DNA of 64,000 bases from a virus: positions 1-64,000 of IMG/VR virus record IMGVR_UViG_3300044641_004197; one strand, given 5' to 3'. Of the stretch, positions 5,236 through 38,987 are shown piece by piece (positions within the stretch are counted from its first letter, which is position 1; each line of letters opens with the position of its first letter). A program made the position numbers and the translations under genes. The notes beneath the pieces were generated by a model. The model did no database searches, had not been told where the DNA came from, and worked only from the letters and a program-made list of their open reading frames with translations.

Positions 5236-5255
5236 TATATATATAGTAAAATGTT

Positions 5256-7905: not shown

Positions 7906-7914
7906 ATTAACATT

Positions 7915-8865: not shown

Positions 8866-8866
8866 A

Positions 8867-9910: not shown

Positions 9911-9913
9911 ATA

Positions 9914-10294: not shown

Positions 10295-10299
10295 AATAA

Positions 10300-20124: not shown

Positions 20125-20673
20125 ATGAAGAAAAAAATACTTTTACTTAGTGACGATTTAAGAATGAATAGTGGCATTGCTACTATGAGCAGAGAATTAG
20201 TTCTCGGAACAGTCCATCGTTATGATTGGGTTCAAATCGCCGGTGCAATCAAACATCCAGAAGCAGGTAAGATAGTCGATTTAAACCAAGCAACCAATCA
20301 AATGTTAAATAGAGACGATTGTTATGTCAAATTATATCCAGTTGATGGATATGGTAATGATCAAATTCTATTCTCTGTAATGCAAATTGAAAAAGTAGAT
20401 GCAATTATGCATTTTACAGATCCTAGATTCTGGGGATGGTTGTATGCAGTAGAACAACAAATTAGACAGAAAATTCCATTGACATATCTTGATATTTGGG
20501 ATGACTTACCATATCCTATGTGGAATAGACCATTTTATGAATCTTGCGATTCATTGTTCGCAATTAGCAAACAAACCGACAACATTAATAAATGGGTTTT
20601 GAGACCAGAACATTGTTTCTCTTTAGAAGGAGAATTTGACAGTGAAGGAAATGTAATAAAGGAGACCGTATAA
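20125..20673 (+). CDS. Glycosyltransferase GT4, N-terminal half (split gene)
   Basis: 182 residues forming only the acceptor-binding Rossmann half of a GT-B enzyme: ILLLSDDLRMNSGIATMSRE (the G-G/S-IA loop), MHFTDPRFWGW, and LDIWDDLPYPMWN with SLFAISKQTDN. It lacks the donor site, which is supplied by the next gene. The stop at 20671 and the following ATG at 20675 are in different frames. Together the two make about 518 residues, the usual length of a GT4. They probably assemble as a heterodimer, or the split is a recent frameshift. See the findings. Confidence 0.8.
   Translation: MKKKILLLSDDLRMNSGIATMSRELVLGTVHRYDWVQIAGAIKHPEAGKIVDLNQATNQMLNRDDCYVKLYPVDGYGNDQILFSVMQIEKVDAIMHFTDPRFWGWLYAVEQQIRQKIPLTYLDIWDDLPYPMWNRPFYESCDSLFAISKQTDNINKWVLRPEHCFSLEGEFDSEGNVIKETV
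20661..20664 (+). promoter_or_regulatory. Shine-Dalgarno sequence inside the 3' end of the split gene
   Basis: AAAGGAG ends at 20664, 10 nt before the ATG of the C-terminal half. Most genes in this window lack such a sequence, so its presence at the split supports independent translation of the second half over a sequencing or accidental frameshift. Confidence 0.55.
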
Positions 20674-20674
20674 T

Positions 20675-21685: not shown

Positions 21686-22377
21686 AAATACAAATATTAA
21701 AGAACGAAACGTATACTAATGAAAGTCAAGTTCCTAAAAAAGGAACGCAACGATCCACTGGATATGATATAATCGCATCCAGTGAACCTGAAATTGTAGG
21801 AGAATTGAATGCAAACGGTTCTTATAAAAGAATTGATTATATTCAATACAAAACCAATTTAAAACTAGCCGTTCAAACTGATCGAACCTTTAGTGGATTT
21901 GGTCATACTGACATAGATTATGACATTCTAGCATTTCCACGTAGTAGTGTTAGTAAGTATAATCTAGTATTAGCCAATAGTATTGGATTGATTGACGCAG
22001 ATTATCGTGGTGAAGTGTTGCTTCGTTTCAAGTATATCTGGCAACCAGAAGATTATAATGTATATACACATGAATCCGGCGACGGATCTCCTTTATACAC
22101 TTATATCGGAGGTAAACCTAATGTTGGCAAAATCTATAAAAAAGGTGACAAGATTTGTCAATTAAAGGTTACGAGAGTTGAACATGTTGAATTTTTCATA
22201 GTAGATGAATTGGATTCTACTAATAGAGGCGAAGGTGGATTTGGTAGCACGGACAAAAAAGTTGAACAAAATTTAGATTCAATTATGTCGTCCTATAAAA
22301 AACAACCGGTCTACACTCCAGAAAAAAAGTATATAGATTTAATAAAAGAAAGAGAAGAACTAAATAATAATTTATGA
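21682..22377 (+). CDS. dut: dUTP diphosphatase (dUTPase)
   Basis: 231 residues with the five trimeric dUTPase motifs in order: STGYDI (1), PRSSVSK (2), ANSIGLIDADYRGEV (3, catalytic Asp), GDKICQL (4) and RGEGGFGSTD (5, the flexible Gly-rich tail). It is longer than the usual 140-160 aa because of an insert between motifs 1 and 2 and another before motif 4. It hydrolyses dUTP to dUMP, keeping uracil out of phage DNA and feeding dTMP synthesis. It is placed oddly, among glycosyltransferase genes, with ATGA overlaps on both sides. Confidence 0.92.
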   Translation: MKIQILKNETYTNESQVPKKGTQRSTGYDIIASSEPEIVGELNANGSYKRIDYIQYKTNLKLAVQTDRTFSGFGHTDIDYDILAFPRSSVSKYNLVLANSIGLIDADYRGEVLLRFKYIWQPEDYNVYTHESGDGSPLYTYIGGKPNVGKIYKKGDKICQLKVTRVEHVEFFIVDELDSTNRGEGGFGSTDKKVEQNLDSIMSSYKKQPVYTPEKKYIDLIKEREELNNNL

Positions 22378-23675
22378 GCAAACCATTATGTGTTATTGAA
22401 GCGCCTGTATTTAACAGAAGCGGTTACGGTGATTTATCAACTGATATTGCAAAGAGCATATTAAGATACGGAAAATATGACTTAAAGATTGCAGCAACTA
22501 GATGGGGAACATGTCCTTCAAAAATGTTTGCCGATGATCTAACCAAAGAAGAAGATAAAGCACTGTCTGCATGTCTGATAAACGGTCAATTAAATAAACA
22601 ACCTGACTTATATATCAAGATAAGTATTCCAAATGAGTTTCAACCACATGGTAAATACAATATTGGTATAACTGCGGGAATTGAAACAACTGTTCCAAGT
22701 GGTGATTTTGTTGAAGGAATGAATAAAATGAATCTTAACATTGTTACATCAAACTTTGTTAAGTCTACATTTGCGAGTGTAAATTATCAAAAACAGTTTG
22801 AAAATGGAACAACACAACCATTGAAGGTAGAAAAACCAATGGAAGTATGTTTCTGGGGTGCAAATACAAAAATTTATAAGAAAACAAATGAAATAAGCGA
22901 AACCGTCCAAGAAGAATTGGATAAGATTCCAGAGACATTTGCATTTTTGTTTGTCGGCCAATGGACACATACAGGAATCTATGATGATAGAAAAGATATC
23001 GGTAACTTAATTAAAAGTTTTCTAAACGCATTTAAAGATAAAAAAGATCCACGTCCATGTTTGTTGTTAAAGACTAGTGGAACTAATTTCTCCAAAGTAG
23101 ATAAAGATGAACTTCTTAAAAAAATAAAGATTATACGTGATGAAGTAGGCGGCAATCTACCAAATGTATATCTTCTCCACGGTGAATTAAATGATGTCGA
23201 GATGAACTCTCTTTATAACCATCCAAAGGTAAAGGCACATTTGAATTTTACTCACGGTGAAGGATTCGGCCATCCAATCTTACTATCATCTTTAAGTGGC
23301 AAACCATTGTTTGTTTCTAGATGGAGCGGTCATTTGGACTTTTTAAATCCAAAATATTGTAACTTCTTTGAAGGAAATGTAAAACCAATTAATCCCGCAT
23401 CTGTAAATCAATGGTTGGTAAAAGAAGGAAGTTGGTTCTATGTCGCATATAGTTTGGCAGAAGAAAAGATTAAAAATTTCTATTATTCTCCAAGTAAAGA
23501 TATTATTGAAAATGCGGAAAAGTTAGCGGAAGAAAATTCTGCAAAATTTAGTATAGAAGAAATGGACAAGACATTACACGCTATATTAGATAAATACGTT
23601 CCACAGTTTTCAGTAGAAGAAAAGATCGTTCTACCTAAACTCAAGAAAATTGAAATGCCAAAACTAAATAAGTAA
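22374..23675 (+). CDS. Glycosyltransferase, GT4-like
   Basis: 433 residues, GT-B type. The N-terminal half starts PLCVIEAPVFNRSGYGDLST and has a GIETTVPSGDFVEGMNKMN segment. The donor half has FLFVGQWTHTG, VYLLHGELNDVEMNSLYN and HGEGFGHPILLSSLSGKP with SRWSGHLDFL. The Gly-rich EGFGHP loop replaces the usual EGFG-P-E. An adjacent pair of lysine-rich stretches ends the protein. It overlaps dUTPase by 4 nt and is 1 nt from the next gene. Sugar specificity is unknown. Confidence 0.75.
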   Translation: MSKPLCVIEAPVFNRSGYGDLSTDIAKSILRYGKYDLKIAATRWGTCPSKMFADDLTKEEDKALSACLINGQLNKQPDLYIKISIPNEFQPHGKYNIGITAGIETTVPSGDFVEGMNKMNLNIVTSNFVKSTFASVNYQKQFENGTTQPLKVEKPMEVCFWGANTKIYKKTNEISETVQEELDKIPETFAFLFVGQWTHTGIYDDRKDIGNLIKSFLNAFKDKKDPRPCLLLKTSGTNFSKVDKDELLKKIKIIRDEVGGNLPNVYLLHGELNDVEMNSLYNHPKVKAHLNFTHGEGFGHPILLSSLSGKPLFVSRWSGHLDFLNPKYCNFFEGNVKPINPASVNQWLVKEGSWFYVAYSLAEEKIKNFYYSPSKDIIENAEKLAEENSAKFSIEEMDKTLHAILDKYVPQFSVEEKIVLPKLKKIEMPKLNK

Positions 23676-23676
23676 A

Positions 23677-24345
23677 ATGGATACTCCTTTTATATCATAT
23701 CTAGTCACTACGAAAAATACAGGGTTTGAACTTCAAACCCTTTTGGAAAGACTGTATAAATACGGTCAAAACAATGAATGTATTATATTAGATGATTACA
23801 GTGATAATCCTAATACATTAGAAATGTTAAATAATGTATCGAATAATAATTTCTTCAAAGTTTATAAACATAAATTAGATAGAAATTATAGCGAACACAA
23901 AAACTATGGAAAAGGTTTTTGTAAAGGTGAATATATATTTCAAATTGATGATGACGAATTGCCTACCGAAACGTTATTGGAAAACTTAAAAGATATAATC
24001 GATTTGAATAAAGATATTGACTTATTCTGGATTCCACGTATAAATGATTTTAAGGGGGTAAATGAAAGTAATTTCCGCCAATGGGGATGGAGATTGACTC
24101 CATACGAAGACAGATTAATTGTCAATTGGCCAGATCCGCAAGGTAGATTGTTTAAAAACGTCCCTTATATTGAATGGAAACGCAGATTACACGAAAAAGT
24201 AGAAGGATCTAAAAATCATGTGCATCTACCCTATGATTACGAATTAGCACTCCATCATAATAAAACTATAGAAAAGCAAATACAAACTAACGTAAATTAT
24301 AATAAAATGTTTACCGAAGATGAAAATAAAGGGTTTAAAATATGA
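23677..24345 (+). CDS. Glycosyltransferase family 2
   Basis: 222 residues. It starts PFISYLVTTKNTGFELQTLL and has ECIILDDYSDNP (first Asp pair) and FQIDDDELPTETLL, which carries the DxD metal and nucleotide site near residues 89-93. The C-terminal part has DLFWIPRIN and an R-W-G-W segment, then a histidine-rich LPYDYELALHHNKT. This is the GT2 (GT-A) pattern. It is shorter than average, so probably a single catalytic domain without a membrane anchor. ATGA overlap with the fucose synthase gene follows. Confidence 0.8.
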   Translation: MDTPFISYLVTTKNTGFELQTLLERLYKYGQNNECIILDDYSDNPNTLEMLNNVSNNNFFKVYKHKLDRNYSEHKNYGKGFCKGEYIFQIDDDELPTETLLENLKDIIDLNKDIDLFWIPRINDFKGVNESNFRQWGWRLTPYEDRLIVNWPDPQGRLFKNVPYIEWKRRLHEKVEGSKNHVHLPYDYELALHHNKTIEKQIQTNVNYNKMFTEDENKGFKI

Positions 24346-25274
24346 ATAAAACAGATAAAATTTTTGTTGCTGGCCATAAGGGTCTTGTTGGATCTGCGAT
24401 TGTAAGAAAACTTGTATCCGATGGATATACTAATATTCTAACCGTGGATAAATCTGTAGTTGATTTAAAAAATCAATATAGTGTAAATCAATGGTTTAAA
24501 ACAAATACACCTGATTATGTATTTCTCGCAGCCGCAAAAGTTGGTGGAATTCATGCAAATAACACATATCCAGCAGAATTCATTACTGAAAATTTGTTAA
24601 TACAAAATAATGTAATAGAAGCGTGTCATGAGTATAAAGTAAAAAAATTAATGTTTTTGGGCAGTGTTTGTATATATCCAAAATACGCTCCTACACCTGT
24701 AAAAGAAAAATACTTATTGTCAGGTGAATTAGAACCTACAAACGAATGGTATGCGGTTGCCAAAATTGCAGGAATCAAACAATGTCAGGCATATAGAAAA
24801 CAATATGGTGATAACTTTATTAGTGTAATGCCATGTAATTTATATGGTATCAATGATAACTTTCATCCAACCAATTCACATGTATTACCCGCATTGATAA
24901 GAAAGTTTCATGAAGCCAAAATAAATAATAATAATGAAGTTATATGTTGGGGAGATGGTTCTGCTAGAAGGGAATTTTTAAATGCTGACGATTTGTCGTC
25001 TGCATTATCGTTCCTAATGAATAACTATGAGTCTTACGAAATAGTAAATGTTGGATATGGTGAAGATTATTCAATTAAAGAAACCGTCAACTTTATTAAA
25101 GAAATAGTAGGATATGAAGGTAATATTGTATGGGATACATCAAAACCTAACGGAACACCAAAACGTTTATTAGATTCTACTAAAATTTTTAATATGGGAT
25201 GGAAACCTAGTATTGAATTACGTGATGGATTAAAGCAGGCATATGATTGGTTTAAATCTAATATAAAAGAATGA
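24342..25274 (+). CDS. fcl: GDP-L-fucose synthase (epimerase/reductase)
   Basis: 310 residues, the normal length. NAD(P)-binding VAGHKGLVGSAIVRKL near residue 9, AAAKVGGIHANNTYPAEFI, FLGSVCIYPKYAPTPVKE (catalytic Ser and Cys region) and WYAVAKIAGIK (YxxxK) are all characteristic of Fcl/WcaG. It converts GDP-4-keto-6-deoxymannose to GDP-fucose with NADPH. The preceding enzyme, GDP-mannose 4,6-dehydratase, is not in the window, so the host or another phage region must supply it. The cupin isomerase-like protein could feed GDP-mannose. Confidence 0.92.
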   Translation: MNKTDKIFVAGHKGLVGSAIVRKLVSDGYTNILTVDKSVVDLKNQYSVNQWFKTNTPDYVFLAAAKVGGIHANNTYPAEFITENLLIQNNVIEACHEYKVKKLMFLGSVCIYPKYAPTPVKEKYLLSGELEPTNEWYAVAKIAGIKQCQAYRKQYGDNFISVMPCNLYGINDNFHPTNSHVLPALIRKFHEAKINNNNEVICWGDGSARREFLNADDLSSALSFLMNNYESYEIVNVGYGEDYSIKETVNFIKEIVGYEGNIVWDTSKPNGTPKRLLDSTKIFNMGWKPSIELRDGLKQAYDWFKSNIKE

Positions 25275-26266
25275 AAACTGCGTTTTTGACAGAAATGAAT
25301 TTTGTAGGAACTGTTCCTCGCACACACAGAAACATGAGAACAGAATTTGCCTGGATGTGTGCGCTTAAGTCAGATCATTATTATATTCATAACTTTAATG
25401 ATATTAAAAATTACGACGCAGTATTTATTATTTTTCCAAAATCAGTGGTAAAATTAAATGCGGTAGGATCAGAGTTGCACTACAATGGACCAGATAAAGA
25501 CATTACAATATATTCAAAACCTGTAATTGAGACATTAAAACAAAATAATAAAAAAGTGTGTGTAGTTCAAGAAGGACCATCTTGGTTTTTCAATGACTAT
25601 GACATGGTTACTCAATTTAACTTTTATAATCAATTATCAGAAGCAGATGTAATCTTTGCTCATAATGTATATGATATGGATTTTTACAATGGTTTATTCC
25701 CCCAGACAAAGATTGCGAATATTCCAAGTTTAATGATAAATGATCCATCTACATGTATTACATCATGGACTACAGAACCTAAATCAATTATTGGAGGAAA
25801 TTTTTGTAGATGGTATGGCGGATTCCAAAGTTATATGGTTGCTACAGAATTTCAATGTCCAATTTATGTTCCGTCATCGCATTGTAAACGGCCAGGAGAA
25901 GAATCAGTTCCAGACTTAAAACATTTGGGTTGGGTTACTTGGGCAGATTGGATGAAACAACTATCTTCATTCAAATATGCAGTCAATTTGATGCCTACGG
26001 TTGCGGCAGGCACATTTTCAATGAATTGTGCTTATTTTGGGATTCCGTGTATTGGAAATAAAAATGTAGATACTCAAAACACATTATTTCCAAGTTTAAG
26101 TGTAGATGTTAATGATGTATTTAAAGCCAGATCACTTGCATCAGCATTAAAAACAGATCTTGATTTTTATAACGACTGTAGCGCTTATGCAAAAAGAAAA
26201 ATTAAAGAAAGTTATCATTTTGACGAAAACAAATGGTTAACTCACATTAATAATATAATATCATGA
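25271..26266 (+). CDS. Putative glycosyltransferase (GT-B-like)
   Basis: 331 residues. It starts MKTAFLTEMNFVGTVPRTHR, has VCVVQEGPSWFFNDYD and a domain-boundary region IIGGNFCRWYGGFQ. The C-terminal half has a loop FKYAVNLMPTVAAGTFSMNC then FGIPCIGNKNVDTQ, which resembles the donor site of GT-B enzymes without an obvious E-x7-E. No membrane segment is seen. It has ATGA overlaps with both neighbours. It could also be a sugar-binding relative; specificity is unknown. Confidence 0.55.
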   Translation: MKTAFLTEMNFVGTVPRTHRNMRTEFAWMCALKSDHYYIHNFNDIKNYDAVFIIFPKSVVKLNAVGSELHYNGPDKDITIYSKPVIETLKQNNKKVCVVQEGPSWFFNDYDMVTQFNFYNQLSEADVIFAHNVYDMDFYNGLFPQTKIANIPSLMINDPSTCITSWTTEPKSIIGGNFCRWYGGFQSYMVATEFQCPIYVPSSHCKRPGEESVPDLKHLGWVTWADWMKQLSSFKYAVNLMPTVAAGTFSMNCAYFGIPCIGNKNVDTQNTLFPSLSVDVNDVFKARSLASALKTDLDFYNDCSAYAKRKIKESYHFDENKWLTHINNIIS

Positions 26267-28632
26267 TAATTCAAATAACATTACTAAGAAACGAACTTCA
26301 CTTTTTAAAAGAACTTTTTCCTATATGGAAGAAGTTTGCGGACGGATTTGTTTTTCTAGACGATTCATCAGATGATGGATCATATGAGTTTCTTATAGAA
26401 AATAAAGAAAAATATAACATCCTTGATGTGATTAGGATGAATCGAAATGATTCTCAGTTAACTATTGAAACAGATATCCGTCAATCAATGTTTGATACTG
26501 CAAATAAATATAGCCCTAATATAATATGTTTAGATGCAGATGAATATTTGGATGGATCATTATCAAAAGAAGAGTTAGAAAATTTGTTACAAAATAATGG
26601 AGATGCTACGTATTTTCTAGATTGGATACAATATACATCAGAAAATACTATAAGAACAGATGGACCTTGGGCAGAAAATATTAAAGATAGAATCGGTAGA
26701 TATGCATCAGGTGGTAAATTTAAAAGAGCACAAACACATTCTACACATCTACCAATTAACAATAAGACACTCAGAATACCAAGAGACAAACTTTTCATAT
26801 CACATCTGCAATGGTTGAATAAAAACTTTGTGGGTGTAAAACAGTATTTTTGGAAAGTAACAGATTATGTTACAAAAAATAAATTCAATGAAGCGGTCGT
26901 TGATTCATCGGCATATGATGCTTCCGTTGCAAATTTTAACTGGCAAGAAGAATACTTTGAATATCCATTAAAAGTTCGAAGTGATATCTTAGAAGATATT
27001 TCAAACTCTTCAAATTATAGAATCAAATATATAAATGAAAAGACCAAAGAGTTTTCGATTCCAAATCTAGGAGACTGGAACCTAAATATAGCGGATTCTA
27101 TTCCTATGTATTTTTCTACAGTATCGGACGAAAAACACTTTCCATTACTATTAAATTTAATAGGAAGCATTCACACTTATCATTTTTATGATGTGGAAGA
27201 AATCGGTGTATTTGATTTAGGAATGACAGATACTCAAATCAATGAATTAAACAACATCAAGAAGGTTAAGATTTATGAAATTGAAAAGACCAATCCTAAA
27301 ATATTTGAACTTATTAATACAGGAATAAATAGAAATGTAAAATGGTTGTTTTCGTTGAAACCTGTAGTCATTAAGCAATCTCTAGAAAAGTATCCATATG
27401 TTGTTTATTTAGATGCAGGATCTACAATCTTAAAACCAGTAAACCGTTTATTCCAACATATAACAGAACATGGGTATTTTTTAAGTGATTGTGGACATTC
27501 AATTGCTCAAATGACCCCAAAACATATCATAGATAAGTTTAATCTTGATCAATCAATCTTAAGTGAATTAGGAATTGATGCCGGTTTTATGGGAGTTTCT
27601 AGAAAAGTATATGATACTTTCATTAAGCCTGTTTATGAATTATCATTTGACATAAATAATTTTATTGATGACGGCACCTGTCCAGATGGATATGGTATGG
27701 GAAGACACGATCAAACTTTATTTAGTATATTTGCAAGAAAATTAAATTTAGATATTCAATTACATGATAGAGACCCAGATGTAATGAATACCATTGTAAA
27801 TGGAAAATCAACTCCATTTATAATTACCCACACTTTATCTAAAGTGAGTTCTTTGACATCTATATTTAGATCAAGATGGAATATTATGCCTAATGTGGCA
27901 AAAACACATGCATCAGCTATCAAACGTAAATACGTATTATCAGTAATTACAGGAATAGGTCCTGGTGGTAAATATGAACAATTTATCGACGGTTATTTTA
28001 AAAATATTGAAGAACAAATACTGTTTAATAGGACCGAACATATAGTAATTTATTCCGAATGGTCTTCTAAATTTGATCAATGGACTGGTTATAGAAATAT
28101 TAAATTTATAAAAGAAAAAGAATCAAAGGGCGTTTATAATGCATGGAATATAGGTTTGTCGAATTGTAACAGTGAATATATAACAAACTGGAATGTTGAC
28201 GATCTTCGACATCCAATTAATACTAAAATTAAATATGACATGTTAAATAATAATATTGATATTGACATGGCATACAATTATTATGTTGCCACAACAACAA
28301 ATGAAACCTTTTACAATATAAACTTAGAAAATAGACAAATATTACAATTTCCAGACAATTATCATCTATACGCAACACAAGCATGTCTCGCTGGACCAGA
28401 TCCGATGTGGAGAAAGTTTGTTCATAGATTCATTGGGAATTTCAACGGAGAAGACTTTTCTATTGTTGCTGATTGGGATATGTGGATACGAATGGCAAAA
28501 TTCGGGTGTAAGTTCAAACTAATTCCAGAAATTCTTTGTATATTTTCAATTCACGAAAACAACGAAAGTAAAAGATCCGAAAAATTAGAAAATCAAAACA
28601 AATTAATTATACAAAAATATGGAAAAAATTAA
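26263..28632 (+). CDS. Multi-domain glycosyltransferase (GT2, GT8-like and GT2 modules)
   Basis: 789 residues with three units. Residues 1-285 are GT2-like: ITLLRNELHFLKELFPIW, VFLDDSSDDGSYE and ICLDADEYLDG (DxD). Residues about 290-540 have VVYLDAGSTILKP and MGVSRKVYDTF, a GT8 or DUF1647-like fold with a D-A-G site. Residues 555-789 are a second GT2-like unit: SVITGIGPGGKYEQFIDGYF, KGVYNAWNIGLSN, NVDDLRHP and IVADWDMWIRMA. Three catalytic domains in one chain suggest stepwise assembly of a short oligosaccharide. The end overlaps the next gene by 14 nt. Confidence 0.7.
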   Translation: MIIQITLLRNELHFLKELFPIWKKFADGFVFLDDSSDDGSYEFLIENKEKYNILDVIRMNRNDSQLTIETDIRQSMFDTANKYSPNIICLDADEYLDGSLSKEELENLLQNNGDATYFLDWIQYTSENTIRTDGPWAENIKDRIGRYASGGKFKRAQTHSTHLPINNKTLRIPRDKLFISHLQWLNKNFVGVKQYFWKVTDYVTKNKFNEAVVDSSAYDASVANFNWQEEYFEYPLKVRSDILEDISNSSNYRIKYINEKTKEFSIPNLGDWNLNIADSIPMYFSTVSDEKHFPLLLNLIGSIHTYHFYDVEEIGVFDLGMTDTQINELNNIKKVKIYEIEKTNPKIFELINTGINRNVKWLFSLKPVVIKQSLEKYPYVVYLDAGSTILKPVNRLFQHITEHGYFLSDCGHSIAQMTPKHIIDKFNLDQSILSELGIDAGFMGVSRKVYDTFIKPVYELSFDINNFIDDGTCPDGYGMGRHDQTLFSIFARKLNLDIQLHDRDPDVMNTIVNGKSTPFIITHTLSKVSSLTSIFRSRWNIMPNVAKTHASAIKRKYVLSVITGIGPGGKYEQFIDGYFKNIEEQILFNRTEHIVIYSEWSSKFDQWTGYRNIKFIKEKESKGVYNAWNIGLSNCNSEYITNWNVDDLRHPINTKIKYDMLNNNIDIDMAYNYYVATTTNETFYNINLENRQILQFPDNYHLYATQACLAGPDPMWRKFVHRFIGNFNGEDFSIVADWDMWIRMAKFGCKFKLIPEILCIFSIHENNESKRSEKLENQNKLIIQKYGKN

Positions 28633-29368
28633 ATTGAACGAGGACTTTGATAGATGGGTAAAAAATTGGTCTAACGATGAAAAAACCAATGATGAAATTT
28701 ACTATGAATTCCAAAATAAAACAATGGAAAATGATGCATTAAAATTTCATGTAGACTATATTGGTAAAAACTCTATGGGATTTGGAGAAGTGCCGTTTAG
28801 ATATATGTGGATGTTGTTAGTAAATCAAATGCCTGATACATTTAAATTTCTAGAAATCGGAGTATACAAAGGATCTGTTCTTTCATTGGTTCAATTGTGT
28901 TCTAATCAATTAAATAAAACTCCATCAATTTACGGTGTAACTCCACTAAATCAATCAGGAGACAAATATCTTCCAGCATATGAAAATGCTGATTATTTAC
29001 ATTGTATAGGAACAGTATATAACGCTTTAAATTTAAGTATAAATAACACAACGATAATAAACGGACTATCTACAGACCCTACTATAAAATCTATGGTCAA
29101 AGAAGAATCTCCATTTGACATGATTTATATTGACGGAAGTCACAATTATGAAGATGTTGTAAGTGATATTTTGTTCTGTGATCAATTATTAAAACAAAAC
29201 GGACTACTAGTCATGGACGATGCGTCTTCAGATTTGTCATTAGGAAAGTCTTCATTATTCCGTGGTCATGCTGATGTTGCATTAGCAATCAAAAATTCAC
29301 TGGACACTACAAAGTATAAACATTTATTTGCTTGTGGTCACAACAGAGTATGGATGAAAACACAATGA
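28619..29368 (+). CDS. Class I SAM methyltransferase (Methyltransf_24/cephalosporin-hydroxylase-like)
   Basis: 249 residues. SAM loop KFLEIGVYKGSVLSLVQL near residue 79, then MIYIDGSHNYEDVVSD and LLVMDDASSD (metal-binding Asp). This arrangement occurs in sugar O-methyltransferases and cephalosporin-hydroxylase-like proteins of polysaccharide clusters. It belongs to the same broad group as the proteins at 5256 and 31521, so the cassette has three such enzymes. The stop overlaps the next start (ATGA). Sugar O-methylation is likely and the acceptor is unknown. Confidence 0.7.
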   Translation: MEKIKLNEDFDRWVKNWSNDEKTNDEIYYEFQNKTMENDALKFHVDYIGKNSMGFGEVPFRYMWMLLVNQMPDTFKFLEIGVYKGSVLSLVQLCSNQLNKTPSIYGVTPLNQSGDKYLPAYENADYLHCIGTVYNALNLSINNTTIINGLSTDPTIKSMVKEESPFDMIYIDGSHNYEDVVSDILFCDQLLKQNGLLVMDDASSDLSLGKSSLFRGHADVALAIKNSLDTTKYKHLFACGHNRVWMKTQ

Positions 29369-30202: not shown

Positions 30203-31528
30203 ATGCAAGTTACAAAAGATGAAATTTTAAAATTGGTTTCTCAATACATAAACGAAAAACATTCTAATAAAACATGGACACCAGGAGTTGATTGGGTTCA
30301 ATATGCAGGACCATTATTTGATGAAAACGAATATATCGCAGCAATAGAATCACTTTTAAAAGGATGGTTAGTTTTAGGACAAGATGCTATTACATTTGAA
30401 AATAACTTTCCTCTATTATTTGGAAAAGAGTACGGTATTCTTACTAACAGTGGAAGTAGTTCAAATCTTATTATGATGTTAGTAATGACATCTAAAAGAC
30501 TGTATAATCTCCCAAAAGGAACAAAAGTAATTACTCCAATCGCTGGATTTCCTACTACTCTGAATCCTATTTTGCAAGTAGGATTTGAACCTGTATTTGT
30601 AGACGTTGATCTAGACACTCTCAACTTAAATCTAGATCAAGTCGAAGAAGCAGCTAAAAAAGGAGCTAAAATAATTACTTTTGCGCACGTTCTTGGCAAT
30701 CCGCCTAATATGAATAGATTGATGGATATAGTTAAAAAATATAATCTAATCCTATTAGAAGACTGTTGTGATGCTCTTGGTTCTACTTATGACGGTAGAC
30801 CATTGGGAAGTTTTGGAGAACTATCAAGTTGTAGCTTTTATCCAGCTCATCATATGACTATGGGCGAAGGTGGATTTGTTGCTTGTAATACCAAGATTCA
30901 AGAAATAATTGCACGTAGTTTTCGTGAATGGGGACGTGGATGTTATTGTGTAGGTAAAAAAGCTAATCTATTGAAGAATGGAAGTTGTGGAAATAGATTC
31001 TCAAACTGGTTACCTGAATTACCAGATGAAATCTTTGATCACAAGTATGTTTATGATGAAATTGGATATAATTTAAAACCAATTGAACTACAAGCTTCTA
31101 TTGGACTAGAACAAATGAAGAAACTTCCAGAAATCCATAAAAGAAGGAAAGAGAATCATTTCAAACTAAAACAAATATTCGGTAAGTATGAAGAATTCTT
31201 TCATCTACCGAATGCAACTGAGTTGTCAGATCCAAGTTGGTTTGCATTTGCGTTAACCATTAAAGACAACAGTAAATTTAAACGTAAGGATATTGTAGAC
31301 TTCTTGGAATCAAATAAGATTCAAACTAGACCTTATTTTGCTGGCAATATTATGTTACAGCCAGCATACACAGGACTTATGGATAAAAATCAAGTTTTAA
31401 CAAAATACCCAAATGCAAGAAAAATAACAACTGATACTTTCTTTTTAGGAACAAGTCCTGTTATAACATTAGATCAGTTAAATTATGTAGAAAACACCAT
31501 AAATAATTTTTTTAAAAAATATGTATAA
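30203..31528 (+). CDS. E1-type dehydrase (CDP-4-keto-6-deoxyglucose-3-dehydrase, RfbH/AscC-like)
   Basis: 441 residues, DegT/DnrJ/EryC1 fold but of the unusual dehydrase class. His216 in SFYPAHHMTMGEGGF replaces the PLP-binding Lys of the aminotransferases, so the cofactor is free PMP, as in E1. The Cys ligands of E1's 2Fe-2S cluster (known as C-X57-C-X1-C-X7-C) are Cys189, 247, 249 and 262, with spacings 57, 1 and 12. The first three spacings match, while the last loop is longer. E1 removes the C3 hydroxyl of CDP-4-keto-6-deoxyglucose on the way to 3,6-dideoxyhexoses. The partner reductase E3 is not in the window. Confidence 0.85.
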   Translation: MQVTKDEILKLVSQYINEKHSNKTWTPGVDWVQYAGPLFDENEYIAAIESLLKGWLVLGQDAITFENNFPLLFGKEYGILTNSGSSSNLIMMLVMTSKRLYNLPKGTKVITPIAGFPTTLNPILQVGFEPVFVDVDLDTLNLNLDQVEEAAKKGAKIITFAHVLGNPPNMNRLMDIVKKYNLILLEDCCDALGSTYDGRPLGSFGELSSCSFYPAHHMTMGEGGFVACNTKIQEIIARSFREWGRGCYCVGKKANLLKNGSCGNRFSNWLPELPDEIFDHKYVYDEIGYNLKPIELQASIGLEQMKKLPEIHKRRKENHFKLKQIFGKYEEFFHLPNATELSDPSWFAFALTIKDNSKFKRKDIVDFLESNKIQTRPYFAGNIMLQPAYTGLMDKNQVLTKYPNARKITTDTFFLGTSPVITLDQLNYVENTINNFFKKYV

Positions 31529-32159
31529 ATTAATAAATTCAGTAAACATATACAATTATCCATCACATATGAAAAGACCAGATGGATTTTTCGGCTCTAA
31601 TTTTTTTGAAAAATGGATACCTAATTGGCAATCTCATTTAGGACATCTAAAAGGATTACCAAACATTTATGGAATTGAAATTGGATGTCTAAATGGCGAC
31701 TGTTCTATATTCTGTGCAGAGGAAATAACAAACGGTGAAGGAAGTATACATCATTGTATAGACATAAATAAAAACGAATATTTTACAAATAATATAAGTC
31801 CATATAAAAATATTAAATTTACACAAGGAAAATCCTGTGATGTTTTGAGATCCAATATATTTAAACCAAAATCAGCAGATTATATATATATTGATGGATC
31901 TCATCTTGCAATTGACGTATTAACCGATGCAGTTCTATCGTGGTATCTTCTTAAAGACAATGGGATATTAATATTTGATGATTATGGTTGGGGAGTTCAT
32001 ACAAATGATGAAAAACAAAAACCAAAATTGGGAATTGATGCGTTTTTAAATGCTTATACACAACATTATGAAGTGATTCAATTTGGATGGCAAGTATTTT
32101 TAAAAAAATTACCTTATACATATTCAGACGAAGAATTAGAAGCAAATTATCAAAAATAA
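31521..32159 (+). CDS. Class I SAM methyltransferase-like protein
   Basis: 212 residues. SAM loop YGIEIGCLNGDCSIFCAEE near residue 50, IHHCIDINKNEYF, DYIYIDGSHLAIDVLTDA and ILIFDDYGWG. The acidic pairs fit the metal-dependent Methyltransf_24 group. It overlaps the dehydrase end by 8 nt and lies 1 nt before the 4,6-dehydratase, so it is embedded in the deoxysugar block and probably methylates its product. It is a divergent relative of the proteins at 28619 and 5256. Confidence 0.65.
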   Translation: MYKLINSVNIYNYPSHMKRPDGFFGSNFFEKWIPNWQSHLGHLKGLPNIYGIEIGCLNGDCSIFCAEEITNGEGSIHHCIDINKNEYFTNNISPYKNIKFTQGKSCDVLRSNIFKPKSADYIYIDGSHLAIDVLTDAVLSWYLLKDNGILIFDDYGWGVHTNDEKQKPKLGIDAFLNAYTQHYEVIQFGWQVFLKKLPYTYSDEELEANYQK

Positions 32160-32160
32160 T

Positions 32161-33138
32161 ATGAAAAAAATTGTATACGTAACAGGATGTTTAGGTTTTA
32201 TTGGATCATACGTCACCAGAGCTTGTTTAGAACAAGGATGGTATGTTATTGGCGTAGATAAAGGAACCTATGCGGCTAGATATGAAAATCTAAAAGAATT
32301 TGAAAAATATGGACCAAACTGTTTTAAATTTATTAATTCAGACATCAACGATTTAACATCATTGTTTGACTGCGATTATATAATTAATACAGCAGCAGAA
32401 ACTCATGTTGATAATTCAATTGTATCAAGTGACGAATTTATTCATTCCAATATCAATGGCGTAAAACATCTACTAGATCTCATAAGACTTAAGAGTAAGT
32501 TTACGATGCCTACATTACTTCATTTTAGCACTGACGAAGTATATGGAGATATTAAAGAAGGATCTCATACCGAAACCGATTTGTTAAAACCAAGTAATCC
32601 ATACTCCGCAACAAAAGCTGCTGCTGATATGTTAATAACGGCATGGGGAAGAACCTTTAAAGTTCCATATATAATTGTAAGACCGACAAATAACTATGGA
32701 ATAGGACAGTATCCAGAAAAGCTAGTTCCCAAAGTTTGTAAATTCATAAATCTTGGAAAAAAAGTTCCTCTTCATAATAACGGAACACCAAAACGAGTAT
32801 GGTTACATGCAAAAGATACCGCAAATGCAGTCATTACTATCATTAAAAATAACGAAAACAATGAATGTTTAAATGAAATATATAATATTGGAGGTGACAT
32901 TGAACTTCCAAATATTGAAATCGTTGAAAAGGTTCATAAGTTATTGATATCACCATCTGTTCAATCATCCGATTGGAAAGATGAAATTTGTGATTTTAAT
33001 TATACAAGAGCAGGTCAAGATGTCAGATATAGTTTGGATGACAACAAATTAAGAAAATTAGGATGGAAAAATGAATGTAATCTTGACACCGAACTACAAA
33101 GTATAGTAGAATTCTACAAAAATAATTTCATTTGGTAA
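32161..33138 (+). CDS. NDP-hexose 4,6-dehydratase (RmlB/RfbG-like)
   Basis: 325 residues, extended SDR. VTGCLGFIGSYVTRACLEQG (NAD site, GxxGxxG), AAETHVDNSI, FSTDEVYGD (catalytic Thr-Asp-Glu), NPYSATKAAAD (YxxxK) and RPTNNYGIGQYPEKLVPK are those of dTDP-glucose 4,6-dehydratase. It oxidises C4, removes water across C5-C6 and reduces C6 to give an NDP-4-keto-6-deoxyhexose, the substrate needed by the E1-type enzyme two genes upstream. Sequence alone does not tell whether it uses dTDP-, CDP- or UDP-sugars. Context with E1 favours CDP, its motifs favour dTDP. Confidence 0.85.
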   Translation: MKKIVYVTGCLGFIGSYVTRACLEQGWYVIGVDKGTYAARYENLKEFEKYGPNCFKFINSDINDLTSLFDCDYIINTAAETHVDNSIVSSDEFIHSNINGVKHLLDLIRLKSKFTMPTLLHFSTDEVYGDIKEGSHTETDLLKPSNPYSATKAAADMLITAWGRTFKVPYIIVRPTNNYGIGQYPEKLVPKVCKFINLGKKVPLHNNGTPKRVWLHAKDTANAVITIIKNNENNECLNEIYNIGGDIELPNIEIVEKVHKLLISPSVQSSDWKDEICDFNYTRAGQDVRYSLDDNKLRKLGWKNECNLDTELQSIVEFYKNNFIW

Positions 33139-33145
33139 TCGATTT

Positions 33146-34972
33146 ATGAAAATTAAAATAAGCGACTTGATCGCTGAATATTTAAAGGAAGCTGGAATTA
33201 AAACTGTGTTTGGGATTATTGGTTCAGCCAATTCTTACATTTTCGATTCTATAAATAAACTAGGATATACAGAAATTGTCTGTGTTCATCATGAACAATC
33301 TGCTGTTATGGCAATGGGTGCTTATTTTAGAACGAGTGGTAAATTATCAGCTGCAATTGTAACCGCTGGTGCAGGATCTTCAAATGCAATTACAGGAGTA
33401 TTGAGTAATTGGGCAGATTCTATTCCCGGTATTATTATATCCGGACAAGAACAATCCAAGTTCATAGAAAAATATGAAGGGTTGAGAATGTATGGAATTC
33501 AAGGATTTAATTCGGCAAAAATGACGAAAGATATCACGAAATATTCTACGATATTAAAATCAGATGATGACATACAATCAATTCTTGAATATTCACACTT
33601 TGTAACTATAAACCAAAGGCCAGGGCCAGTATGGTTAGATGTTCCATTCGATGTTCAATCAAAATTCACATCTGTAAGAAAATGGAATTTAAAGTCCGCA
33701 CAATTAATTGATTCTGTAGACGCACTCCCAGTTACTATAGATTGGGATATCAATTATGTAGTTGATAAATTAAAGACTGCAAAACGACCTTTAATTTGGG
33801 CAGGTCATGGCATTAGATTGTCGGAAATGAAAGATAAGTTTAGAGATTTAACAAAATCATTGAAAGTTCCTACGATTCTTACATGGAGCGGAATTGATTT
33901 ACTAGAAGACGAACATCCATATTATTTCGGAAGAGCTGGTATAAGTGGAATGCGATATTCGAACTTTATAGTTCAAAATTGTGATCTTCTTCTTGTAATT
34001 GGAAGTAGATTATCACTATTACAAACAGGTTACGATATAAATCGATTTGCACCAAATGCAAAAATTATAGTTGTTGAGAACGACCCCACTGAATTAAAAA
34101 AGTTTGATAATAAATACGATAAAGTTCTTCAGATGGATTGTCGTATTTTTATAAATGAATTGCAAAAACTAACATTCTCTAATGAGTATACCGAGTGGTT
34201 AGAATATTGCAATAAAATGAAACAAAAGTTTCCTTTGTTGGAAGAATGTCATAAGGATGGTGGGGAAAATTATTTAAATTCATATCATTTTATAAATGAT
34301 CTATGTGATTATATCGATGACGATGCAATTATAGTTACCGACATGGGAACTGGATTGCTGAGCGGACATTATTCTATGAGATTAAAACCTAATCAAATAA
34401 TGTTTACATCACTTGGATTAGGAGAGATGGGATATGGACTTCCAGGTGCAATAGGTGCAGCAAAAGCATATCCAGGCAGACAAATTATTTGTTTGAATTG
34501 TGACGGTGGCATGATGATGAATCTGCAAGAATTACAAACAATTATTCATCATAAAATGAATATAAAAATTGTAGTATTTAATAACGATGGATATCTAATG
34601 ATTAAACATACACAAAATATGTTATTCAAAGGACACAAAACATCTGTAGATTCTAATACCGGCCTTAGTTTGCCTGATTATATAAAAGTCGGAAATTCAT
34701 TCGGATTTGGATCATGGTCACTTAATAATTGGTCTAACTTCGAAAATACAATAAAAGAATGGTTGAGTTCAAATAATCCTACGTTGTTAGAGGTATATAT
34801 GGACCCAAATCAGGAATTTTTACCTAAAGTAAAGGGAATTGCAAATGAAGACGGAACTATTACCCCAGCATCTTTAGAAGAAATGTCTCCTATACTACCA
34901 TATAAAGATATCGAAGATGCGATGATTGCAGGTGTAAGTGAAAATTCTAAAAAAATTCGTAGACCAAATTAA
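33146..34972 (+). CDS. Thiamine-diphosphate enzyme, acetolactate synthase-like (YerE-type candidate)
   Basis: 608 residues with the three-domain layout of the acetohydroxyacid synthase family: N-terminal Pyr domain with catalytic Glu50 in CVHHEQSAVMAMGAY, a central domain (about 200-340) and the C-terminal PP domain with LGLGEMGYGLPGAIGAAKA, NCDGGMMMN and VVFNNDGY (the GDG...NN motif, first Gly replaced by Cys). Family members decarboxylate pyruvate to hydroxyethyl-ThDP. YerE adds this two-carbon unit to CDP-3,6-dideoxy-4-keto-glucose. The neighbours supply exactly that kind of ketosugar, so the same reaction is proposed, by inference. Confidence 0.75.
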   Translation: MKIKISDLIAEYLKEAGIKTVFGIIGSANSYIFDSINKLGYTEIVCVHHEQSAVMAMGAYFRTSGKLSAAIVTAGAGSSNAITGVLSNWADSIPGIIISGQEQSKFIEKYEGLRMYGIQGFNSAKMTKDITKYSTILKSDDDIQSILEYSHFVTINQRPGPVWLDVPFDVQSKFTSVRKWNLKSAQLIDSVDALPVTIDWDINYVVDKLKTAKRPLIWAGHGIRLSEMKDKFRDLTKSLKVPTILTWSGIDLLEDEHPYYFGRAGISGMRYSNFIVQNCDLLLVIGSRLSLLQTGYDINRFAPNAKIIVVENDPTELKKFDNKYDKVLQMDCRIFINELQKLTFSNEYTEWLEYCNKMKQKFPLLEECHKDGGENYLNSYHFINDLCDYIDDDAIIVTDMGTGLLSGHYSMRLKPNQIMFTSLGLGEMGYGLPGAIGAAKAYPGRQIICLNCDGGMMMNLQELQTIIHHKMNIKIVVFNNDGYLMIKHTQNMLFKGHKTSVDSNTGLSLPDYIKVGNSFGFGSWSLNNWSNFENTIKEWLSSNNPTLLEVYMDPNQEFLPKVKGIANEDGTITPASLEEMSPILPYKDIEDAMIAGVSENSKKIRRPN

Positions 34973-35830
34973 ATGAATAAAATTAGAGTCGGAATAATAG
35001 GAACAGGAAACATCGGAACAGACCTTTTGATGAAGTCTTTAAAATCAAAAGATTTAGAAATAGTTGCGTTTGTTGGTAGACGTGCAGATTCTGAAGGAAT
35101 TTTGAAAGCACAATCTCTCAATGTAAATACATCTACAGAAGGGTTGGATTATTTTATTAAAAATAATAACGTCGATGTAGTATTTGACTGCACAGATGCA
35201 TTCACTGCTCTTAAAAATTGGAATTTCTTTAAAAATTCTAATATTAAAGTAATTGATATGACTCCATCAAAAATAGGAGAAATGTGTATTCCGATCATTA
35301 ACGGCGATACAATAAAACAAAATTCAAACGTTAATATGGTAACGTGCGGTGGTCAATCTTCTATTCCTTTATTAAATTTAATATCAAATTGTTGTTCTGA
35401 TATAGAATATATAGAAATCGTATCTCAGATTGCGTCAAAGAGTGCTGGTATAGCAACAAGACTAAACATAGATCAATATATTCACACCACAGAAGATGCT
35501 ATATATAAATTTACAAACTGTAAGAAATGTAAAGTAATTCTCAACTTAAATCCAGCAGAACCCTGCGTTGATATGCAAACAACAATGTTTGTAAAATCAA
35601 ACGATATAAACTTTGACAAACTTCAATCAGAGTTAAATAATAGATTAAAAATGGTTCGTGAATATGTTCCACATTATGAATTAGTGATGATGCCAGTAAT
35701 TAATGAAGATGGTATTTTAATACTAAGCATAAAAGTTAGAGGAACCGGTGATTATCTTCCTAGTTATGCGGGAAATCTAGATATCATAAATTGTGCAGCA
35801 GTAAATGTAGCGGAAAGATTAAAGAAATGA
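34973..35830 (+). CDS. Acetaldehyde dehydrogenase, acylating (DmpF/MhpF-like)
   Basis: 285 residues (family about 300-315). VGIIGTGNIGTDLLMKSL (NAD site at 8-15), catalytic Cys125 in NMVTCGGQSSIPL, IVSQIASKSAGIATRLNID and a C-terminal AGNLDIINCAAVNVAE all match DmpF. It oxidises acetaldehyde to acetyl-CoA with NAD and CoA, normally channelled from the partner aldolase, whose gene follows with an ATGA overlap. The start follows the ThDP enzyme stop directly. Finding it in a sugar operon is unusual, since DmpFG usually act in meta-cleavage catabolism. Confidence 0.88.
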   Translation: MNKIRVGIIGTGNIGTDLLMKSLKSKDLEIVAFVGRRADSEGILKAQSLNVNTSTEGLDYFIKNNNVDVVFDCTDAFTALKNWNFFKNSNIKVIDMTPSKIGEMCIPIINGDTIKQNSNVNMVTCGGQSSIPLLNLISNCCSDIEYIEIVSQIASKSAGIATRLNIDQYIHTTEDAIYKFTNCKKCKVILNLNPAEPCVDMQTTMFVKSNDINFDKLQSELNNRLKMVREYVPHYELVMMPVINEDGILILSIKVRGTGDYLPSYAGNLDIINCAAVNVAERLKK

Positions 35831-36873
35831 AAAATGTAATAATTAACGATCCTTCTTTAAGAGACGGAAACCATTGTGTAAAACACAAAATAAATTTAAA
35901 AAGTATTGAGAATTATTGTAAATTTGCAGAATCTGCACATATTCCTGTCGTTGAAGTCGGCCATGGAAATGGTTTAGGTGCATCTTCACTCTTAATAGGT
36001 CAATCTCCTCATACGGATGAAGAAATGTTAACAGTAGCAAGAAATAATTTAAAATTGTCAAAACTCAGCGTTCATGTAATTCCAGGAATGGCAACTATAA
36101 AACGTGATATTCAACCCGCAATTGATATTGGCGTAGATGTATTTCGTATTGCAAGTCATGTAACAGAAGCAAACGTTACACAGAAACATATAGAATATGT
36201 AAGGAACAAAGGAAAAAATGCATATGGAGTTTTAATGATGTCAGCATTAGCGGATACAAAAACTCTAGTAAACGAAGCAAAAAAGATGGAAGAGTATGGT
36301 GCAGATACATTCCTCATTATGGATTCAACCGGAACATATCTACCAAAAGACGTTGAAGAAAGAATTAAAGCATTAAAAGATAATTTATCAATCAAGATCG
36401 GTTTCCACGGACATAATAATCTAGGATTAGCTATAGCAAATTCTTTGGTTGCAGTCCAAAATGGTGCCGACATAATAGACGCATGTATTCGTGGATTTGG
36501 TGCTGGTGCAGGAAACGCTCAATTAGAAGCATTGATTCCAGTTCTTGAACAATATGGATACAATACGAATATAGATTTTCAAAAAGTTATTTTAGAATCA
36601 GATAACGTAATGCAGTATATGGTAGAAAACGTGCCAACAACTGCACCCATAAACATATTAACAGGCTTGAACAAATTGTTCTCTGGTTTTGAAAAACCAA
36701 TAATTAAAGCATCAAAGTTGTATGGATTGCAATATTCATCATTAATATTTGAATTAGGAAATCGAAAACTTGTGGCGGGACAAGAAGATCTAATCTTAGA
36801 AATAGCTCAAAATATTAAAAAGAAACCATCCAATACGTCTGATGAGGGGTGGGAACGTATTTCATGTCCATAG
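35827..36873 (+). CDS. 4-hydroxy-2-oxovalerate aldolase (DmpG/MhpE-like)
   Basis: 348 residues from the ATG at 35827, which overlaps the previous stop (an upstream ATG at 35791 would add 12 unrelated residues). DPSLRDGNH (Arg12, Asp13, His16) holds the catalytic residues of DmpG; PVVEVGHGNGLGASS, IGFHGHNNLGLAIAN (metal-binding HxH) and FGAGAGNAQLEAL follow. It is a class II pyruvate-metal aldolase cleaving 4-hydroxy-2-oxopentanoate to pyruvate and acetaldehyde, or running in reverse. Pyruvate would feed the ThDP enzyme. It ends TAG, then TTT ATG in the same frame starts the next gene. Confidence 0.88.
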   Translation: MKNVIINDPSLRDGNHCVKHKINLKSIENYCKFAESAHIPVVEVGHGNGLGASSLLIGQSPHTDEEMLTVARNNLKLSKLSVHVIPGMATIKRDIQPAIDIGVDVFRIASHVTEANVTQKHIEYVRNKGKNAYGVLMMSALADTKTLVNEAKKMEEYGADTFLIMDSTGTYLPKDVEERIKALKDNLSIKIGFHGHNNLGLAIANSLVAVQNGADIIDACIRGFGAGAGNAQLEALIPVLEQYGYNTNIDFQKVILESDNVMQYMVENVPTTAPINILTGLNKLFSGFEKPIIKASKLYGLQYSSLIFELGNRKLVAGQEDLILEIAQNIKKKPSNTSDEGWERISCP

Positions 36874-36876
36874 TTT

Positions 36877-37716
36877 ATGAAAATATTAATAACAGGAGGT
36901 AATGGGTATATTTCAAAAAGTATATCTGAAAAACTTCGAAATATAGGCCACATTGTAATTTCTCCGTCAAGACAAGAAATGAACGTTACAAATTTTAGTG
37001 ACGTTAATCTTTTTATTGAAAAACACACACCAGATGTAGTAATTCACGCAGCATCAAAAGGAGGATATCGTGATGTTCCAGATACACACGAAGTCTTTTT
37101 AGAAAATACAATGATGTTTGAGACTTTAATTAAAGCAATACCATCAAATATCCCTATTATCTTTTATACATCAGGAGCAGACTTTGATAGACGAAACGAA
37201 ATAAAAGAAATTATAGAATCTGACGTTGTAAATCGATGGCCAGTAGACCCTTACGGATTGTCAAAAAACTTGATAGTAAGAAGAATTTTGCAGGGCAATC
37301 ATAAAAATATAAGTATTTTAAGAATATTTGCAGCGTTCAACGAAGATGAAAAAAACACACGATTTATTAAAAAATCCATCTTAAATATAAAAGAGGGATT
37401 GCCTATTACTATACATCAAAATCGAGAAATTGATTTTTTCTATATTGACGATTTGGTCACTGTTACAGATTATTTATTAAATAAATTGCTTAATAATCAA
37501 TTTCATATTAATATATCATATATCAACAAAACAACTTTATTAGATGTTTCTAAAATTATCTGCAAATACACAAGTCATTTAAATCCTAAAATAACAATTT
37601 TAAATGAAGAAGAAGGTGTTTCATATTCTGGATATGGTCAGAAATTGAATAGTTTTTCTTTGCCATTAATAGGATTAGAAGAAGGTATATCTAGAACCGT
37701 TAAGAAATTAATATGA
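36877..37716 (+). CDS. NAD-dependent epimerase/dehydratase (extended SDR)
   Basis: 279 residues. ILITGGNGYISKSISEKL (nucleotide site, GGNGYIS), DVVIHAASKGGYRDVPD, FYTSGADFDRRNE, then DPYGLSKNLIVRR with the YxxxK pair. The C-terminal sugar-binding part is short. The fold is that of NDP-sugar reductases or epimerases such as RmlD. In this block it may be the ketoreductase that acts after the two-carbon addition, like YerF after YerE. That pairing is inference from order. Confidence 0.75.
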   Translation: MKILITGGNGYISKSISEKLRNIGHIVISPSRQEMNVTNFSDVNLFIEKHTPDVVIHAASKGGYRDVPDTHEVFLENTMMFETLIKAIPSNIPIIFYTSGADFDRRNEIKEIIESDVVNRWPVDPYGLSKNLIVRRILQGNHKNISILRIFAAFNEDEKNTRFIKKSILNIKEGLPITIHQNREIDFFYIDDLVTVTDYLLNKLLNNQFHINISYINKTTLLDVSKIICKYTSHLNPKITILNEEEGVSYSGYGQKLNSFSLPLIGLEEGISRTVKKLI

Positions 37717-38987
37717 TTACATTTTGTATAAATACATGTAAAAATGAAAGACACCACCTTGAATTATTGTTCAAGTCACTTGCGACCAATCTTTCAAGAA
37801 AAGATTATAACATTATTGTATTCGTTGACAGTGATAATCAAAATACAACAGACTGGTTAGTTTCACAAAAAAATATATTTAAGAACTTAAAGATCGTAAA
37901 AAATCCAAACGCAATTCCAGTAGGATATCAACGAAATATTAATCTGATGTTTGAAATGGCAGACACTGATATTGTTTCGTATATTCAATCGGACATGGTG
38001 ATCTGTAAAGACTATGATTTAGAAATCATTAAAAATATAGACGATAACACAGTGATATCTAGCACCAGAATAGAACCACCTCTACACCCACCTTCTTCAG
38101 AAAAAATTACCTTTGATTTTGGATTAGATCCTCAAAATTTTAACTTTGACGAATTTCAAAAATTTTCCCAACAACAAAAACAAAACAAATTAACAGATTA
38201 TTGGTTCGCTCCATTTACGCTTTATAGAAAAAAATGGATAGAAATCGGCGGACACGATACTCTGTTCAGACGTTCAAGAGAAGATTCCGATATCTTGTAT
38301 AGAATGTGTTTAAATGGAATGAAGTTTAAACAAGATTGGAATGCAATTGTATATCATTTTACATGCACATCGTCTAGAGGTAAAGAATGGTGGAAACAAG
38401 AAAACCAAGAAAAAACAAAATTACAAAGTATAGCAGATCAAATTGAAATGACTAGATTTTTGAGAAAGTGGGGCAAATTTAAACACAATACTCAAAAAGA
38501 CGGAGATGAGTATAAATATAATATTTCAATTAATTTTAATAATGTAAAAAATAATGAACGGTTTATATTAGAAAATTATTTTCTGTTTAACAAAATCGGT
38601 GTAGATAATCAATCATCATATGAAAGTTTGAAACGAGAGTATAATACGTTCCATGACTATGCAAATAGATTGTTGAACGTTTCAGATGAAACATGGAAAA
38701 ACTTAAAATCTTCATATAGAACATTTGATTTTGAAGACATATTCAGTAACAACATTGTAGATGACGATATTGTTATCTCATTAAATTTAAATAAAGCAAA
38801 TAACAATACAATCAATCATCTAAGACAACTCCAAGACATTGTAAAAAATTCATTAAATGAAACTGACACCGGAGAATTTATTCTGGACGATTCTATATAT
38901 ATAAAAGTAAATAAAGTCGTAAATAGAATATCAGAAAACATTGTTGTAAACAATCCTCCATTCACATTACCATTAGAATATCTATGA
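37713..38987 (+). CDS. Glycosyltransferase family 2
   Basis: 424 residues. FCINTCKNERHHLELLFKSL, IIVFVDSDNQNTTDWL, NPNAIPVGYQRNINLMFEMA and SYIQSDMVI (the DxD equivalent as SDM) give the GT2 catalytic core. WFAPFTLYRKKWIEIGGHD and RRSREDSDILYRM (the ED base) complete it near residue 195. About 180 C-terminal residues (predicted helical, Asn- and Lys-rich) have no recognisable domain. There is no membrane anchor. ATGA overlap with both neighbours. It could transfer the modified sugar made by the preceding genes. Confidence 0.8.
   Translation: MITFCINTCKNERHHLELLFKSLATNLSRKDYNIIVFVDSDNQNTTDWLVSQKNIFKNLKIVKNPNAIPVGYQRNINLMFEMADTDIVSYIQSDMVICKDYDLEIIKNIDDNTVISSTRIEPPLHPPSSEKITFDFGLDPQNFNFDEFQKFSQQQKQNKLTDYWFAPFTLYRKKWIEIGGHDTLFRRSREDSDILYRMCLNGMKFKQDWNAIVYHFTCTSSRGKEWWKQENQEKTKLQSIADQIEMTRFLRKWGKFKHNTQKDGDEYKYNISINFNNVKNNERFILENYFLFNKIGVDNQSSYESLKREYNTFHDYANRLLNVSDETWKNLKSSYRTFDFEDIFSNNIVDDDIVISLNLNKANNNTINHLRQLQDIVKNSLNETDTGEFILDDSIYIKVNKVVNRISENIVVNNPPFTLPLEYL

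Follow-up and report, generated by a model that had tools for sequence, protein, structure and literature searches.

A phage gene block predicted to build a four-carbon-branched dideoxysugar of the erwiniose type

Results

Gene content of the block

The DNA analysed here, referred to as the window, consists of bases 1-64000 of the 72,264-base virus record IMGVR_UViG_3300044641_004197 from IMG/VR. It carries the traits of a T4-like phage, with genes for a DNA polymerase (45% identity to that of Microcystis phage Mel-JY01), a clamp loader, a sliding clamp, a DnaB-like helicase and ribonucleotide reductase. Positions 30203-37716 hold seven intact genes, all on the plus strand and joined by overlaps or gaps of a few bases, that are predicted to direct the synthesis of a branched 3,6-dideoxysugar. 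They encode, in order, an E1-type (RfbH) 3-dehydrase (30203..31528), a methyltransferase (31521..32159), an RfbB-like nucleoside diphosphate (NDP)-hexose 4,6-dehydratase (32161..33138), a thiamine diphosphate (ThDP) enzyme proposed to be a JanthE-like carboligase (33146..34972), a DmpF-like acylating acetaldehyde dehydrogenase (34973..35830), a DmpG-like pyruvate aldolase of the 4-hydroxy-2-oxovalerate aldolase family (35827..36873), and a short-chain dehydrogenase/reductase (SDR) proposed to be a ketoreductase (36877..37716). A family 2 glycosyltransferase (GT2) gene on the same strand (37713..38987, PF00535) overlaps the last of these, and its product is a candidate for the enzyme that uses the sugar. 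For the aldolase, the most probable start codon is ATG 35827, which overlaps the stop of the dehydrogenase gene as ATGA, and not TTG 35791.

The enzymes that the initial annotation of this DNA had named as one block are all present and match family models. E1 scores 475 bits against NF011936 (cut-off 423) and 350 bits against 3bcx/3bb8, DmpF scores 328 bits against TIGR03215, above its cut-off, and DmpG scores 334 bits against TIGR03217 (cut-off 286). The SDR has Epimerase/RmlD Pfam matches. The methyltransferase (Methyltransf_24, PF13578), for which a sugar is a possible substrate, had been placed together with GT2 after the pathway genes; both genes exist, with the methyltransferase lying between E1 and the dehydratase. 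The block has a G+C content of 31.3%, compared to 31.5% for the window.

Viral relatives were collected in a first set of 44 loci and 45 records, and a second scan brought the viral loci to 77. Between the block and L045, one of its two nearest relatives in the first set, nonsynonymous distance is only 0.14-0.50 while synonymous sites are saturated or almost so, which marks the block genes as old residents under selection. Because catalytic residues are kept, dozens of other viral contigs show the arrangement too, and divergence is mostly synonymous, the block is not a product of chance. A close homolog of the methyltransferase was found only in the two nearest relatives, L002 and L045, of the first set.

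In E1, His216 replaces the aminotransferase Lys, and the cluster Cys residues are 189, 247, 249, and 262; none of these residues varies among 26 viral and 58 bacterial relatives, and E1 was recovered in 34 of the 45 viral records. The dehydratase, whose gene in viral relatives usually adjoins the ThDP gene or lies close to it, scores 280 bits against TIGR01181, below the cut-off of 365, and only 77 bits against the CDP (cytidine diphosphate)-type model TIGR02622, with 2hun as its best solved match. It appears from these scores to be related to RfbB but divergent, and the sub-cut-off score to TIGR01181 does not fix the nucleotide. The SDR residues S99, Y126, and K130 (the Ser-Tyr-Lys set) are conserved among viral relatives, in which this SDR family follows the block, as a GT2 gene does in many of them. 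A structure model of the SDR, with a predicted local distance difference test (pLDDT) score of 94, resembles GDP (guanosine diphosphate)-fucose synthase and RmlD-type ketoreductases; on this model, reduction of the new side-chain carbonyl is its proposed role.

The ThDP enzyme groups with JanthE

The ThDP enzyme contains three thiamine pyrophosphate (TPP) Pfam domains, scores far under the cut-offs of acetolactate synthase models, and is assigned to phrog_11199, a family whose function is not known. Among solved structures it matches 8rph with 552 bits, versus 256 for 5ahk, which we take to be PpYerE, and 255 for acetolactate synthase. Structure 8rph is JanthE from Janthinobacterium sp. HH01 (PMC12188165), an identity checked by numbering: V121, Y268, P293, Y297, and K567 fit with a single offset. 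In a quick phylogenetic tree the window enzyme falls with JanthE, outside the YerE branch. Its cofactor motif is NCDGG, and the rare CDG of JanthE, in place of GDG, is found in 77 of 77 viral loci. JanthE is the closest solved relative, although viral and bacterial enzymes of this group are only about 44% identical to it.

JanthE accepts 4-hydroxy-2-oxovalerate (PMC12188165). ErwE of Pectobacterium atrosepticum has been described as inactive with pyruvate, with a preference for 4-hydroxy-2-oxo acids and with erwiniose (PMC12247030), a ten-carbon sugar (PMC8657720), as its product. By sequence, the window enzyme is a member of the JanthE group of YerE-like ketone-accepting lyases, and carboligation on a ketone is predicted. 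This lends support to the initial proposal of a phage-borne branched 3,6-dideoxysugar pathway in which a YerE-like ThDP enzyme would add carbon from pyruvate. The two-carbon branch that it had modeled on YerE is probably wrong, since the enzyme stands apart from YerE.

DmpF and DmpG as a proposed source of the donor acid

DmpG can join pyruvate and acetaldehyde to give 4-hydroxy-2-oxopentanoate, and DmpF can convert acetyl-CoA (coenzyme A) to acetaldehyde, both in the reverse of the catabolic direction. Subtracting a hexose from the ten carbons of erwiniose leaves a four-carbon branch, which matches what remains of 4-hydroxy-2-oxopentanoate after decarboxylation. The phage pair, earlier taken to manage two- and three-carbon units, is best read as making this acid and so as adding four carbons, and its linkage to the ThDP gene points to it as the hydroxy-oxo acid source.

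The block and the catabolic systems DmpFG and BphIJ have both enzyme families in common, with catalytic residues kept: the active-site motif TCGGQ occurs in 65 of 65 viral DmpF homologs, and the catalytic and metal residues (Arg, Asp, His) are invariant in linked DmpGs. They differ at two positions of BphI, mapped through alignments to 1nvm and 8ih7, and in the synthetic direction proposed for the phage pair. Four solved catabolic aldolases have Leu and Tyr at L87 and Y290. Linked DmpGs have His at the former (65 of 65 viral and 75 of 77 bacterial sequences) and Phe at the latter (60 of 65 viral, the others being four Met and one truncated, and 77 of 77 bacterial). Engineered BphI variants L87N/Y290F and L87W/Y290F are 4R-specific (PMC3962088). 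By analogy, the natural His/Phe pair would confer 4R selectivity. We take C7 of erwiniose to be 7R, which would fit a 4R donor, and do not count this as evidence.

Bacterial and viral loci

The gene order noticed in the initial annotation recurs: ThDP-DmpF-DmpG linkage was found both in bacterial polysaccharide loci and in other viral contigs. Of the 80 bacterial loci that carry this ThDP enzyme, 74 have DmpF and DmpG together, 62 have RfbF, and 60 have a strong RfbG match. A single control, the YerE-only locus L138, has E3, RfbF, RfbG, E1, YerE, and an SDR, and no DmpF/DmpG within 19 kb; the SDR type adjoining YerE there is found in none of the 44 viral loci. Three Pseudomonas loci (L082, L086, L088) carry YerE-like and JanthE-like ThDP genes close together in one polysaccharide locus, and the two enzymes, being side by side, presumably have different roles. 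An HpaI-type aldolase gene adjoins the ThDP gene at L125:11820-12581 and L134:7820-8602, in L125 taking the place of DmpF/DmpG and in L134 accompanying them; in such loci the donor may be another compound, made by another type of pyruvate aldolase.

Among viruses, the ThDP-DmpF-DmpG unit is present in at least 66 other contigs (66 of the 77 loci). Matches to T4-type major capsid protein occur in 11 of the 45 records, two of them marginal and stop-interrupted, most records being fragments. The viral version is rewired, in that an RfbB-like dehydratase and a different SDR replace the CDP-glucose enzymes and E3. Judged by the bacterial standard, the block is thus short of the completeness first claimed for it, as it lacks E3, glucose-1-phosphate cytidylyltransferase, and CDP-glucose 4,6-dehydratase.

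In the same quick tree, with long branches and supported by the Shimodaira-Hasegawa-like approximate likelihood ratio test (SH-aLRT) only, viral ThDP enzymes occupy two places. One holds 30 viral rows plus L046; in the other, four viral rows (L028, L029, L031, L032) are nested among mainly betaproteobacterial sequences. Phage-type E1 and dehydratase genes accompany the viral ThDP genes in both places, although L032 ends too early to show a dehydratase, and this pattern suggests that modules have been exchanged. L046, a Flavobacteriaceae metagenome-assembled genome, combines phage-like genes for the ThDP enzyme, DmpF, and DmpG with E1 and CDP-glucose genes of the bacterial type (L046:10001-13639), and is a possible source or recipient lineage.

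No isolated-phage record contains the unit; all ThDP and DmpG matches there have less than 40% identity, and many sit in records that resemble bacterial contigs. Some Synechococcus phages have an E1 match of about 43% identity, and the annotation around E1 in phage S-H68 has no ThDP enzyme or DmpF/DmpG. The annotated glycosyltransferase region of Mel-JY01 has none of the block's genes, and a plasmid search gave no match at E 1e-80.

Proposed pathway

From gene content, families, conserved residues, clade, and linkage, we infer a series of reactions together with the direction of DmpF/DmpG, the stereochemistry, the nucleotide-linked form, and the product. The RfbB-like dehydratase would convert NDP-glucose from the host to NDP-4-keto-6-deoxyhexose, from which E1, dependent on pyridoxamine phosphate, would strip the C3 hydroxyl with electrons from a host reductase. 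DmpF would convert acetyl-CoA to acetaldehyde, and DmpG would join it to pyruvate, yielding 4-hydroxy-2-oxopentanoate, probably 4R. The JanthE-like enzyme would then decarboxylate this acid and put a 3-hydroxybutanoyl unit on the C4 ketone. Reduction of the new carbonyl by the SDR would give an NDP-3,6-dideoxyhexose with a 1,3-dihydroxybutyl branch, ten carbons in all, for use by GT2 or a neighboring transferase. E3, RfbF, and a CDP-type dehydratase are all absent from the viral loci, and E1 may draw its electrons from a host reductase; SpnQ, an E1 homolog that acts on a dTDP (deoxythymidine diphosphate) sugar, uses general cellular reductases.

Discussion

We consider it likely that the phage genes encode a viral form of the erwiniose-type pathway, leading to a four-carbon-branched sugar. 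The two would be alike in a hydroxy-oxo-acid donor, a YerE-like ThDP enzyme, a 4-keto-3,6-dideoxy sugar acceptor, and a ten-carbon product. They differ in that ErwE acts on a CDP sugar, whereas the viral block has no CDP-glucose enzymes or E3 and has another dehydratase and SDR. Several observations weigh against this interpretation. Neither RfbF nor a strong match to RfbG, the CDP-type dehydratase, was found in any of the 44 viral loci. Two bacterial E3-type reductases have no match in those loci, and one of them none in the 45 records, the contigs searched being fragments. L134, an enteric locus with the same gene set, could not be named an erwiniose producer. Two of the five JanthE pocket positions are changed in the window enzyme (Y268 to Ser and P293 to Leu), so that its substrates may differ from those of JanthE, and JanthE takes pyruvate as well (PMC12188165). 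Finally, in nine viral loci (L160, L166, L168-L174) genes for a DegT protein and an SDR stand on either side of the ThDP gene and the flanking sequence covered has no DmpF/DmpG, so the link between the ThDP enzyme and the pair is not strict.

The last two points also favor a two-carbon branch, in which the ThDP enzyme would take pyruvate and add an acetyl group, as YerE does in the yersiniose A pathway, with DmpF/DmpG only recycling acetaldehyde and pyruvate. That pathway (YerE, YerF, E1, E3, and CDP-glucose enzymes) likewise combines E1 with a ThDP enzyme that accepts ketones and works on a 4-keto-3,6-dideoxy sugar, but it has a pyruvate donor and, as in L138, no DmpF/DmpG. The absence of the pair from that locus, the distinct clade of the window enzyme, and the coexistence of YerE and a JanthE-like enzyme in the three Pseudomonas loci make this alternative unlikely, and a pyruvate donor would leave the specialized DmpG unexplained. 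A longer branch, made if the aldolase took an aldehyde other than acetaldehyde, as in caryophyllose, would agree with the use of several hydroxy-oxo acids by ErwE and MMAR_2332 (PMC12247030) and with Ile in the window DmpG where BphI has Leu-89, the residue that controls chain length. It seems quite improbable, as the partner DmpF lies above the cut-off of an acetaldehyde dehydrogenase model and no larger-aldehyde enzyme was recognized beside it.

Automatic names suggest metabolic genes with no sugar role, serving acetolactate and branched-chain amino acid synthesis or a turnover of pyruvate and acetaldehyde that supports replication. Similar genes have been filed under amino acid synthesis in Micromonas pusilla viruses MpV1 and MpV-PL1, which are reported to encode acetaldehyde dehydrogenase, acetolactate synthase, an aminotransferase, and dTDP-glucose 4,6-dehydratase (PMC5454428); these are algal viruses, likened to the block by reported gene content only. 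We regard a purely metabolic role as highly improbable, given acetolactate synthase model scores far beneath cut-offs, a closer relationship to JanthE than to acetolactate synthase, and a linkage to 3-dehydrase and dehydratase genes that recurs in viruses and bacterial polysaccharide loci. As specific assignments, acetolactate synthase and pyruvate catabolism were ruled out by family scores, relatives, and linkage. Phosphonopyruvate decarboxylase was also weighed and set aside; no phosphoenolpyruvate mutase is named among the families scanned.

To return to the erwiniose-type reading, the nine viral loci without DmpF/DmpG probably use another donor, perhaps pyruvate. The DegT protein in eight of them is typed as ColD-like, with the His kept and no cluster Cys, and in L170 the ColD-like features are likewise read from sequence; loci with such a dehydrase perhaps represent a route to branched sugars that is parallel to this one and fed by another donor. 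A further locus without the pair, L185, is on a contig that stops at the ThDP gene. In L022, L163, L167, L175, and L202, the ThDP gene and DmpG lie on opposite strands, and DmpF is present in the first four of these contigs. A RING-finger protein and a ColD-like dehydrase are also encoded by L022, which may derive from an algal DNA virus, given the gene content reported for Micromonas viruses. Homology to prasinovirus genes is unconfirmed, since a structure model of the ThDP enzyme found only distant matches in BFVD, at 22% and 19% identity. We put forward, as a tentative possibility, that a rewired, virus-specific route to long-branched sugars, starting from another nucleotide sugar than CDP-glucose and using a dedicated 4R-type DmpG, has spread in T4-like phages and, with a ColD-like dehydrase, in algal DNA viruses, where it has been filed as amino acid synthesis.

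No description of a viral branched-sugar pathway was found in the literature; the pathway type is known from bacterial surface polysaccharides, and as far as we found its occurrence in viruses appears new. If the interpretation is correct, infecting viruses turn central metabolites into a sugar that ranks among the more elaborate ones known. Viral genes now labeled acetolactate synthase or aminotransferase would gain a concrete function, biosynthetic DmpGs could be tested for in sequence by the His/Phe signature, and the viral enzymes would be candidates for chiral tertiary alcohol synthesis. Elsewhere in the window, 370-12879 and 20125-29368 contain many more glycosyltransferases and methyltransferases, with a radical SAM (S-adenosylmethionine) protein at 8867-9910, so the phage invests heavily in glycan synthesis.

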